Part shown: positions 30,515-35,073 of the stretch, in pieces
Numbering within the stretch: position 1 is the first letter of the stretch
Layout: every line of letters starts with the position of its first letter
DNA from: Betaproteobacteria bacterium HGW-Betaproteobacteria-9
GTDB taxonomy: Bacteria; Pseudomonadota; Gammaproteobacteria; Burkholderiales; Burkholderiaceae_C
Direction: 5' to 3'
Assembly (NCBI GenBank): GCA_002842215.1
Contig: PHCC01000016.1
Span: forward strand, 62,001-126,000
Length of the DNA stretch: 64,000 nt
The notes under the pieces: model-generated
Seen by the model: only the letters and a program-made list of their open reading frames with translations
Told to the model about the DNA's origin: nothing
The model's database searches: none
Made by a program: the position numbers and the translations under genes

Positions 30515-31828
30515 ATGTCCGCAGATGCCCTGTCAGCTGATTCCCCGTCGCCAGAGGTTCCAGTGGCCGTGGCCCCCGCGTCGCCCAACACGCCGCACCC
30601 GCGCCACATCCGCCTGACCTCGCACTCCGGCGGGTTCGGGGCGCTGCCCATCGTCTGGGGCGCGGCCAGTGCGCGCGAGCGCGGGCCGGTGGTGGGCACC
30701 ACGCTCAACGTGTCGAACCGCAACGTGATCGGCACGCACAGCGGCAGCTACAGCGTGTACCGCGCGCTGGCCGTGGCGGCGGGCGCGCTCAAGCGCGAGC
30801 ACCGCGCCGACCTGACCAACACCGCGCCCACCGACATCATCGGTCCCTACCCGCAGTGGGCCGACCCGGAAAAGATCGTCAGCATGGACCCCTGGGGCGC
30901 AGTGATCGCCGACGCCTACGCCACCGAGCTGGAGGCGGGCTACGACATCCGACCGACCATCGCCGTGACCCAGGCGCACGTGATCCTGCCCGAGGTGATC
31001 GACGCGTTGCAGAAAGGCAGGCTCCAACCCGATGGCCGCTTCCTCACCGCGGGCGGCGCGGCGGTGGTCACCAAGGTGGCGGTGGAGCCGGTGTGGTACC
31101 TGCCCGGTGTGGCGAAACGCTTTGGCTGCACCGAGGCCGTGTTGCGCCGCGTGCTGTTTGAAGAGACCGGCGGCATGTACCCCGAGCTGGTCACGCGTTC
31201 GGATTTAGAGGTGTTTCTGCCCCCCATCGGCGGGCAGACGGTCTACATCTTCGGCAACCCGCGCGACCTGGCCAACCCCGCCGTGACGCTGACCGCGCGC
31301 GTGCACGACGAGTGCAACGGTTCCGACGTGTTCGGCTCCGACATCTGCACCTGCCGGCCCTACCTCACGCACGCCATCGAAGAGTGCATCCAGGGCGCGC
31401 AGCGCGGCGGCGTGGGCCTGGTGTCGTATTCGCGCAAGGAAGGCCGGGCGCTGGGCGAAGTGACCAAGTTCCTGGTCTACAACGCGCGCAAGCGCCAGGT
31501 GGGCGGCGACACGGCCGACCAGTACTTCGCGCGCACCGAGTGCGTGGCCGGTGTGCAGGACATGCGCTTTCAGGAGCTGATGCCCGACGTGCTGCACTGG
31601 CTGGGCATCACCAAGATCCACCGCCTGGTCTCGATGAGCAACATGAAATACGACGCCATCACCGGCTCGGGCATCGAGGTCGGCGAGCGGATCAACATCC
31701 CCGACGAGCTGATCCCCGCCGATGCGCGCGTGGAGATGGACGCCAAGATGGCGGCGGGCTATTTCACACCCGGCGCGGTGCCCGATGCCGAGGAACTGAA
31801 GATCGCCAAGGGCCGGGGGTTGGCTTGA
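30515..31828 (+). CDS. URC1-type GTP cyclohydrolase II-like protein of uracil catabolism
   Basis: A 437-residue protein with a C-terminal RibA-type fold. The zinc site C-x10-C-x-C is intact (CNGSDVFGSDICTC), followed by GLVSYSRKEGRALGE, the counterpart of the RibA active-site loop. The N-terminal half (LTSHSGGFGALPIVWGA, HADLTNTAPTDIIGPYP-like segments) is absent from true riboflavin enzymes and typical of URC1. In the yeast and bacterial URC pathway this protein, the DUF1688 protein and uracil phosphoribosyltransferase are needed to use uracil as a nitrogen source. All three lie side by side here. It overlaps the next gene by four bases. Confidence 0.9.
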   Translation: MSADALSADSPSPEVPVAVAPASPNTPHPRHIRLTSHSGGFGALPIVWGAASARERGPVVGTTLNVSNRNVIGTHSGSYSVYRALAVAAGALKREHRADLTNTAPTDIIGPYPQWADPEKIVSMDPWGAVIADAYATELEAGYDIRPTIAVTQAHVILPEVIDALQKGRLQPDGRFLTAGGAAVVTKVAVEPVWYLPGVAKRFGCTEAVLRRVLFEETGGMYPELVTRSDLEVFLPPIGGQTVYIFGNPRDLANPAVTLTARVHDECNGSDVFGSDICTCRPYLTHAIEECIQGAQRGGVGLVSYSRKEGRALGEVTKFLVYNARKRQVGGDTADQYFARTECVAGVQDMRFQELMPDVLHWLGITKIHRLVSMSNMKYDAITGSGIEVGERINIPDELIPADARVEMDAKMAAGYFTPGAVPDAEELKIAKGRGLA

Positions 31829-33078
31829 CGCCCGACACCCACACCCCGGCCGGCGCGGTGCATGCGCTGCGTTCAACTATCGCCGTGCGCGAACGCGCGC
31901 AGCAATTGCTGGCGCGCGCGCGGGCGGGTGAATCCGGTTGTTTCGCGGTCAACGATGGCGCGCTGGCGCTGGCCGCCAGCACCGTGGCCGAACTCACGCG
32001 GCAGCGCTTTCCGGACGGGCGCATCCCGTACCACAGCCGCTGGCGCCACTTCGAAGCGGGCGGGGTGGACCGCGCTGGCCAGCTCGACGGGCTGCTCGGC
32101 CCGGTGGACGCTGCCACCCGCGCGCGGGCGCAGATCGACCTGGCGCTGGTGAGCGTGTTGCTGGACGCCGGTGCCGGCCCGCAATGGGCTTACCGCGAAG
32201 CGGCCAGCGGGCACAATTTTTCGCGATCCGAAGGCCTGGGCGTGGCGAGTTTTCACGCCTTCACCGCCGGGTTGTTCTCCAGCGATCCGTTGCAGCCGCT
32301 GCGGGTGGACGCGGCCGGCCTTGCGGTGCTCAGCGCAGAACGTCTGGGCGAGGCTTTTCAGGTGACGGTGGACAACCCGCTCGTGGGTCTGGGCGGTCGC
32401 ACCCAGCTGCTGCGCCAACTGGGCGAGGCGCTGAAGGCGCAGCCCGATACCTTTGGCCCCGCGGGGCGACCGGGCGGTTTGTACGACGCGTTGTGCCATG
32501 CCGCGGGTGCGGACACCGAACCGGTGCGCACCATCGCGGCGCATCACATCCTGGTCCTGCTGCTGGACACGCTCTCGGCCATCTGGCCGGCGCAGAACGC
32601 CATCGACGGCCTGTCCCTGGGCGACTGCTGGCATCACCCCGCCGTGGCCGGCGAGGGCCTCACCGCCGGCTGGATGCCGTTCCACAAGCTCTCGCAGTGG
32701 CTCACCTATTCGCTGCTGGAACCGTTCGAATGGTCGGGCCTGCGCGTGACCGGGCTGGACGCGCTCACCGGCCTGCCCGAGTACCGCAACGGTGGCCTGC
32801 TGATCGACGCCGGTGTGCTGCGCCCGCTGCCGACCGACTGGGCCACGCGCAGCTGGTCCGCCGGCGATGCCTTCATCGTCGAATGGCGCGCGCTCACCGT
32901 GGCCCTGCTCGACGAGCTGGCCCCGCTGGTGCGCGCCGAGCTGGGCCTGAGCGCCGAGCAGATGCCGCTGGCCTGTGTGCTCGAAGGTGGCACCTGGGCC
33001 GCGGGGCGGGCATTGGCGCAGCGCCTGCGCAACGGACTGCCGCCGCTGAACATCGTCAGTGACGGAACCGTCTTCTGA
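31825..33078 (+). CDS. URC4/DUF1688 family protein of uracil catabolism
   Basis: A 417-residue soluble protein matching DUF1688, the Urc4 component of the URC pyrimidine pathway. Landmarks are [37 protein letters not shown], the central [35 protein letters not shown] and [14 protein letters not shown]. Its chemistry is not established; Urc4 is thought to act after ribosylation of uracil. The start is a TTG that overlaps the URC1 stop (TTGA), with a G-rich stretch in the ribosome-site position. No in-frame ATG lies near. Followed 26 bases later by upp. Confidence 0.88.
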
Positions 33079-33104
33079 GTTCACCCACAACAAAAGGCAA
33101 CACC

Positions 33105-33734: not shown

Positions 33735-33795
33735 GTCACCGCTCCGCAGCGTATCCTCGGGCGCTGACGAAACCCCGCCGCCAAGGTGAACCCCG

Positions 33796-35073
33796 ATGCT
33801 GGACCTGCTGATCACCCACGCCAACCTGCCCGACGGCCGCACCGACATGAGCGTGGCGGTGCAGGACGGTCGCATCGTCGAGGTGACGCCGGGCCTGCAG
33901 GCGCCCGCACATCAGACGCTGGACGCGGCCGGCCAGCTGCTGAGCCCGCCGTTCTGCGACCCGCACTTTCACATGGACGCGACGCTCAGCTACGGCCTGC
34001 CGCGGATCAATCAGAGCGGCACCCTGCTCGAAGGTATCGCGCTCTGGGGCGAGCTCAAGCCGCTGCTGACCGAAGAAGCGCTGGTGGAGCGCGCGCTGGC
34101 CTACGGGGACTGGGCGGTGGCCAAGGGCCTGCTCGCCATCCGCAGCCACGTCGACACCAGCGATCCCAGCCTGCTGCCGGTGCGCGCGATGCTGGAGGTG
34201 AAGCGGCGCATGGCGCCTTACCTGGATGTGCAGCTGGTGGCCTTCCCGCAGGACGGTGTGTTGCGCTCACCGGGCGGGCTGGACAACCTGAAACGCGCGC
34301 TCGACCTGGGCGCGGACGTGGTCGGCGGCATCCCGCATTTCGAGCGCACCATGGCCGACGGCGCCGCCAGTGTGAAGCTGCTGTGTGAACTCGCCGCCGA
34401 GCGCGGCCTGCCGGTCGACATGCACTGCGACGAGAGCGACGACCCGCTCTCGCGCCACATCGAAACGCTGGCGTATGAGACCCAGCGCCTCGGCCTGCAA
34501 GGCCGCGTCAACGGCTCGCACCTCACCTCCATGCACAGCATGGACAACTATTACGCGTCAAAGCTGATCCCGCTGATCGCCGAAGCCGGCGTGAGCGCGG
34601 TGGCGAATCCGCTGATCAACATCACCCTGCAAGGCCGGCACGACACGTACCCCAAACGCCGCGGCATGACGCGCGTGCCTGAGCTCATGGCGGCCGGCGT
34701 CACGGTGGCCTTTGGCCACGACTGCGTGATGGACCCCTGGTATTCGCTGGGCAGCGGCGACATGCTGGAGGTGGCGCACATGGGCCTGCACGTGGCACAG
34801 ATGACCAGCCAGGCCGGCATGCGCCAGTGCTTCGAGGCGGTGACGGTGAACGCGGCGCAGGTGATGGGGCTGGAGGGTTACGGCATCGCTGCGGGGAACG
34901 ACGCAAGCTTCGTGTTGCTGCAGGCGCGCGACCCGGTGGAGGCGATCCGCCTGCGCGCGACGCGGCTGAAGGTCTGGCGCCAAGGCCGGCTGCTGGCTGA
35001 GACACCGGCGGCGCAGGCCAGGCTCTCGCTGCCGGGTCGGCCGGGCGCGACCGCCTTCATGCCGGCGGGCTGA
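33796..35073 (+). CDS. codA: Cytosine deaminase
   Basis: A 425-residue amidohydrolase converting cytosine to uracil and ammonia. The metal-binding set is present: HFH (PHFHMDATLS), His in DMHCDESDD with its catalytic Glu, and the Asp of FGHDCVMDPWY. The family stretch SHLTSMHSMDNYYASKLIPL matches E. coli CodA. Sitting at the end of the URC-upp module, it feeds uracil into that pathway. No CodB permease is in the window. It converges with the ketopantoate-reductase-like gene. Confidence 0.95.
   Translation: MLDLLITHANLPDGRTDMSVAVQDGRIVEVTPGLQAPAHQTLDAAGQLLSPPFCDPHFHMDATLSYGLPRINQSGTLLEGIALWGELKPLLTEEALVERALAYGDWAVAKGLLAIRSHVDTSDPSLLPVRAMLEVKRRMAPYLDVQLVAFPQDGVLRSPGGLDNLKRALDLGADVVGGIPHFERTMADGAASVKLLCELAAERGLPVDMHCDESDDPLSRHIETLAYETQRLGLQGRVNGSHLTSMHSMDNYYASKLIPLIAEAGVSAVANPLINITLQGRHDTYPKRRGMTRVPELMAAGVTVAFGHDCVMDPWYSLGSGDMLEVAHMGLHVAQMTSQAGMRQCFEAVTVNAAQVMGLEGYGIAAGNDASFVLLQARDPVEAIRLRATRLKVWRQGRLLAETPAAQARLSLPGRPGATAFMPAG

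Follow-up and report, generated by a model that had tools for sequence, protein, structure and literature searches.

Here we analyse a 64-kb stretch of DNA (the window) from a Hydrogenophaga-like bacterium, whose genome we call G000. The window carries a real and complete uracil catabolism (URC) operon of known kind with a recurring cytosine deaminase (CodA) front end. Its four genes all lie on the + strand in the order URC1-URC4-Upp-CodA, and we consider it probable that they form one operon for the use of cytosine and uracil as nitrogen sources. The pathway has been described in yeast and in other bacteria, and the bacterial URC cluster as such is not new and is already in print. What is new is a testable assignment of URC4, the second dedicated enzyme of the pathway, which Pfam still lists under unknown function, to a Qng1-like glycosylase fold. 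Linking URC4 and Qng1 by fold and catalytic positions puts forward one specific reaction and specific residues, and allows a straightforward assay by the release of urea. The genes and their family matches are:

30515..31828, + strand: URC1, GTP-cyclohydrolase-II-like (PF12471, 267.8 bits; PF00925, 56.5 bits; NF005536, 793.8 bits, cut-off 403)
31825..33078, + strand: URC4, DUF1688, 417 amino acids (PF07958, 490.4 bits, cut-off 25)
33105..33734, + strand: Upp, uracil phosphoribosyltransferase, 209 amino acids (TIGR01091, 277.5 bits, cut-off 208.35)
33796..35073, + strand: CodA, cytosine deaminase of the PRK07572 type, 425 amino acids (NF005748, 795.8 bits, cut-off 438)

An earlier note on this DNA had described four genes in one direction with overlaps or short gaps, forming a complete URC module joined to cytosine deaminase. 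Open reading frames and families agree with this description at the coordinates above, and URC1, URC4, Upp and CodA all exceed the cut-offs of their families. The start of URC4 is most likely the TTG of TTGA at 31825-31828, which overlaps the URC1 stop by 4 nt, and gaps of 26 nt and 61 nt separate URC4 from Upp and Upp from CodA. While URC1, Upp and CodA are named by both Pfam and NCBIfam, URC4 has no NCBIfam match at E <= 0.001; plasmid-borne relatives of it are labelled 'URC4/urg3 family protein' in the RefSeq annotation. Against the E. coli-type family PRK09230 the window CodA scores 437.5 bits, below the cut-off of 483.

Predicted fold and active site of URC4

The predicted model of URC4 has the Qng1 fold, matching along more than 300 residues, and rows 8-34 of its structural match list are DNA glycosylases except for the hypothetical protein 1xg7. 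The link between URC4 and Qng1 is built on this predicted model together with weak Pfam matches and hhalign. Residue numbering was fixed by aligning a Qng1 homologue (L190) to the solved Qng1 chains, which gives the Qng1 positions K199, D231, R272, D298 and W302 (D231 is Asn in 7ulc, a D231N mutant). By their titles, the ligand-bound Qng1 entries 7u5a and 7ulc carry mutations at K199 and D231, and D298 and W302 are named as active-site residues in PMC11592518. In the alignment the URC4 equivalents are K288, E319, R355, E387 and W391. Of these five, all but K288 are invariant across 124 distinct URC4 proteins, 123 of which retain K288 as well; in a more diverse set of 30 (A1), all but E387 are invariant.

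Based on the model, URC4 is a predicted Qng1-like N-glycosylase with an HhH-GPD glycosylase fold. Since its fold relatives cut N-glycosidic bonds and the yeast enzyme makes urea from ribosylurea, it is best read as a putative (phospho)ribosylurea glycosylase. URC4 is predicted to act like Qng1, yet by score it is no member of the Qng1 family PF10343. Among the papers accessible to a literature search, none was found to connect DUF1688/URC4 with Qng1/DUF2419.

Several observations weigh against this reading. Both Qng1 acids, Asp231 and Asp298, are Glu in URC4, where Lys and Trp are kept. The K288 position is Asn in one of the 124 proteins, and E387 is replaced by Gln in one of the 30 proteins of A1 (L086). 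With a cut-off of 25, PF10343 gives no match to the window protein and at most 12.9 bits in ten proteins (best E among the 30 URC4s, 0.0028). The PDB was also searched by sequence, with URC4 alone and with a profile, and no relative came up; URC4 alone matched only HisF, at E 0.26. As to its distribution, PF10343 was not found in 299 genomes from the phylum, nor in 30 actinobacterial URC genomes; among 246 actinobacterial genomes it matches in 7, in 6 of them above the cut-off.

A common fold is no proof of function, and URC4 might use the glycosylase fold for another reaction, e.g. as a lyase, as a transferase to phosphate or in a binding role. Such an explanation would fit the two acids that differ from Qng1 (E319, E387) and the failure of every URC4 to attain the PF10343 cut-off. 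We regard it as quite unlikely, however, because the site Lys, Arg and Trp are retained, the structural list is one of DNA glycosylases in the rows given above, and the yeast scheme assigns the ribosylurea-to-urea step to URC4.

Among the matches listed, Rhodococcus URC4 proteins (L112, L113 and other actinobacterial loci) are 69-71% identical to the window URC4 and as near to it as many comamonad ones, and this similarity suggests a transfer of URC4 between phyla. A divergent DUF1688 protein with 31% identity to URC4 is encoded at L083 (G115:C82); URC1, Upp and CodA were not found on its 8.8-kb contig.

A proposed route from cytosine to urea

URC1 matches the PDB entries 7eev and 7ej3 at E 2e-236, both titled 'UTP cyclohydrolase' and both from Rhodococcus; the structure model of URC1 is poor (pLDDT 57) and served solely for reading entry titles. 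The URC1 protein of R. wratislaviensis (L113) is identical to 7ej3 at 420 of 422 positions and 81% identical to the window URC1, and its gene lies in a URC1-URC4-UPP cluster. PMC12507026 cites the UTP cyclohydrolase work in connection with the URC pathway. With a solved 'UTP cyclohydrolase' so close to it, the window URC1 likely acts on UTP rather than UMP. The zinc motif C-x10-C-x-C corresponds to C267/C278/C280 and is invariant in all 15 aligned URC1 proteins, in line with the earlier statement that the RibA-type zinc ligands are conserved. Ring opening of a nucleotide by URC1 stays part of the proposed route, with UTP in place of UMP as the likely nucleotide. With UMP raised to UTP on the way, the suggested cytosine-uracil-UMP-nitrogen route is supported as a URC uracil-to-urea module with a cytosine feed.

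URC is one of four known ways of pyrimidine degradation, and in the yeast scheme uracil yields ribosylurea and 3-hydroxypropionate by uncharacterised steps, whereupon URC4 converts ribosylurea into urea (PMC7530994). We infer that the window genes carry out a cytosine/uracil-to-urea route. CodA would deaminate cytosine to uracil, Upp would convert uracil to UMP, and housekeeping kinases would raise UMP to UTP. URC1 would then open the pyrimidine ring of UTP hydrolytically by zinc-dependent chemistry of the GTP-cyclohydrolase-II type. The (phospho)ribosylurea so formed, whose phosphorylation state is presumed, would be cut by URC4 at its N-glycosidic bond, with release of urea. Finally, urea would be turned into ammonia by urease and/or by urea carboxylase and allophanate hydrolase encoded elsewhere in the genome. 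G000 encodes urease gamma, beta and alpha as well as UreE. It also has a gene for urea carboxylase (1892.5 bits with a cut-off of 1303.85), which adjoins one for allophanate hydrolase.

A Rut or reductive (Pyd) pathway in the same genome, which the earlier note had raised as a counter-argument, was looked for in G000, and neither RutA above its cut-off nor a close PreA was found. The best RutA score is 60.4 bits with a cut-off of 498.3 (14 control genomes gave matches in 7, 2 of them above the cut-off). For PreA, the E. coli protein gives 36.8 bits only, and a comamonad PreA query at 1e-100 matches 48 of 200 family genomes, G000 not among them.

CodA and the probable front end of the pathway

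We surveyed gene linkage at 124 distinct URC4 loci, window included, collapsed from 130 by identical last 350 residues. Genes were counted as in reach within ~10 kb per side, less where a contig ends; because many surveyed stretches stop at contig ends, the counts are lower bounds. The contig scan for URC4 kept 80 of at least 578 confirmed stretches, L192 was omitted from set A2, and L083 and L084 (partial, contig end) lie outside the survey. On the same strand as URC4, URC1 is in reach at 123, Upp at 117 and CodA at 62 of the 124 loci. Chance co-location of the four genes is rejected on this conservation. At the genome level, URC4 is found above its cut-off in 52 of 200 comamonad genomes and, phylum-wide, in 26 of 398.

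CodA lies within this range on the URC4 strand at 62 of 93 non-actinobacterial versus none of 31 actinobacterial loci; the actinobacterial clusters do carry Upp. Linkage of codA to URC, which the earlier note had proposed to look for in other comamonads, is recurrent, but it was seen in none of the 31 actinobacterial clusters and CodA also occurs free of URC. The 52 URC-less comamonad CodA loci have no URC1 or URC4 in their vicinity. PreA accompanies CodA on the same strand at 7 of them (5 with a Bmp-type importer) and Upp at 12 (6 with Bmp), while 8 have Bmp alone, 2 a permease, 1 an amidohydrolase only and 22 none of these. At L248 and L249, PreT-PreA, importer, CodA, an NCS1 permease, a cyclic amidohydrolase and an M20-type amidohydrolase stand in a row. 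As CodA is absent from the 31 actinobacterial clusters and occurs without URC beside PreA or Upp, it seems to be an exchangeable front end rather than a component of URC itself.

Genome counts, all uncorrected for phylogeny, bear on the same point. CodA is present in 99 of 200 comamonad genomes (E <= 1e-60; the matches include one E. coli-type protein, in G057, with 43% identity), and URC4 or PreA accompanies it in 85 of these 99, versus 10 of the 101 genomes lacking CodA. Both routes occur in 5 of the 200 genomes, URC only in 47, PreA only in 43 and neither in 105 (p 0.004). For the 99 CodA genomes the numbers are 4, 43, 38 and 14 (p 2e-11, a value inflated because CodA itself goes with either route). 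A strict exclusion between URC and the reductive pathway is weakened by the inflated value and by the five genomes with both. In G114, from the genus of the window, CodA is present and neither URC4 nor PreA was found.

Alternatively, CodA and Upp could primarily be a salvage pair, leading from cytosine to UMP, placed behind the catabolic pair URC1-URC4, with co-location reflecting nucleobase scavenging. The 12 URC-less loci with Upp near CodA and the actinobacterial clusters with Upp and no CodA fit this explanation. We consider it unlikely, because CodA stands beside PreA, without a salvage role, at 7 of the 52 loci, and because of its genome-wide association with URC4 or PreA.

A more far-reaching reading combines both lines of argument. 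URC4 would be the missing URC glycosylase, a distant sister of Qng1 (Lys and two Glu versus Lys and two Asp) that splits urea off (phospho)ribosylurea, and the comamonad ATP-binding cassette (ABC) importer with CodA would form an exchangeable front end for the UTP-based or the PreTA route. We hold this to be rather likely; it is weakened by the Gln at E387 in L086 and by the inflated exclusion test. The operon reading given above has further points against it: the association tests ignore phylogeny, the URC-free CodA-Upp pairs imply that the linkage may be mere salvage, and the window cluster lacks a transporter and a recognised promoter. A swap of front ends between the URC and reductive routes reveals the feed of each and provides natural strain pairs for comparison.

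A Bmp/PnrA-type binding protein is in reach at 53 of 98 non-actinobacterial loci (hand count, loci not deduplicated, window excluded), as a rule accompanied by an ABC ATPase and two permeases; it is not part of the window cluster. The system may be a nucleoside importer, a role which we take over from its relatives. Some importer clusters contain a PF01048 nucleoside-phosphorylase-family protein (L155:13097-14077 and similar loci), which would fit a nucleoside-to-base step ahead of CodA and Upp. At L047, L050, L073 and L077 a RutR-like TetR-type protein (40-44% identity to E. coli RutR) is encoded just behind Upp on the same strand and is a candidate regulator of URC clusters.

The window CodA keeps the metal and catalytic residues of E. 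coli CodA (H62, H64, Q157, H215, E218, H247 and D314, full-length numbering). At the specificity position, where Asp (315 full-length, 314 in the literature) keeps 5-methylcytosine out of E. coli CodA, it has Cys, the residue of 57 of 59 URC-linked CodAs in all (62 before removal of those with <60% coverage); L138 and L048 have Asp. The Klebsiella 5-methylcytosine deaminase carries Ser there, and an Ala mutant of CodA gained 5-methylcytosine activity (PMC6186785). These precedents and the frequency of Cys would favour a deaminase that acts on 5-methylcytosine or another modified base, giving thymine, and does not mainly feed URC. We find this very doubtful. Cys is also present in all 16 examined URC-less relatives (the URC-less members of the 30 best-scoring CodAs; 52 URC-less genomes have CodA overall) and is therefore a clade trait, and the adjoining Upp and URC1 would act on uracil and UTP. 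Mutants of E. coli CodA at this position reportedly remain cytosine deaminases. Cytosine, possibly with further substrates, is thus the likely feed of the window CodA. Cys as a URC-specific adaptation is rejected by the same 16 relatives.

Genomic setting and known systems

The nearest named relative among the matches listed is Hydrogenophaga aromaticivorans (L168), with a URC4 92% identical to that of the window and the four genes in the same order. Upstream of the window cluster lies an L,D-transpeptidase gene, and between it and URC1 a 99-amino-acid open reading frame (30014-30313, - strand), whose DNA recurs almost unchanged in L168 and shows partial similarity to L110. Downstream, a PanE/ketopantoate-reductase-like gene (35078-36034, - strand) converges on CodA with a 4-nt gap. 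A PanE-like gene also lies on the opposite strand within 10 kb of the URC cluster in L057, L109, L110, L137 and L186, which may be shared synteny or, speculatively, a reductase acting on the three-carbon product. The four URC genes probably share one transcript; no promoter or terminator of the cluster was recognised above shuffles, and no shared motif was evident by eye in the four upstream regions compared. The sole Rfam match above gathering within the window is a thiamine pyrophosphate riboswitch (RF00059, 21296-21410, - strand; 56.7 bits, gathering score 54.3).

Among known systems, the Lachancea kluyveri URC genes and the S. pombe urg1-urg2-urg3 cluster likewise bring together URC1/urg1, URC4/urg3 and a uracil phosphoribosyltransferase. 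In S. pombe urg1 (GTP cyclohydrolase II family), urg2 (uracil phosphoribosyltransferase-like) and urg3 (DUF1688) are uracil-induced (PMC2174524, PMC3869809). The window differs in being a bacterial operon with overlapping genes, a cytosine deaminase and a bacterial-type Upp. The Rhodococcus UTP cyclohydrolases (7eev, 7ej3) share about 81-83% identity with the window URC1 over nearly the whole length and, at L113, the URC1-URC4-UPP context, but no CodA is nearby. The comamonad reductive clusters at L248 and L249 resemble the non-actinobacterial URC clusters in having a Bmp-type ABC importer and CodA in front, whereas PreTA, the cyclic amidohydrolase and the M20-type amidohydrolase replace URC1-URC4-Upp. 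E. coli CodA and the Klebsiella deaminase (4r85) belong to the same amidohydrolase family as the window CodA, with the same metal and catalytic residues, and differ at position 314 (Asp and Ser, respectively, versus Cys; PMC6186785). The queuosine-5'-monophosphate glycosylase Qng1/DUF2419 (7u07, 7u91, 7ugk) shares with URC4 the fold and the site Lys, Arg and Trp, and is set apart by ~20% identity, Asp in place of both Glu, a PF10343 cut-off that URC4 does not reach, and another genomic setting.

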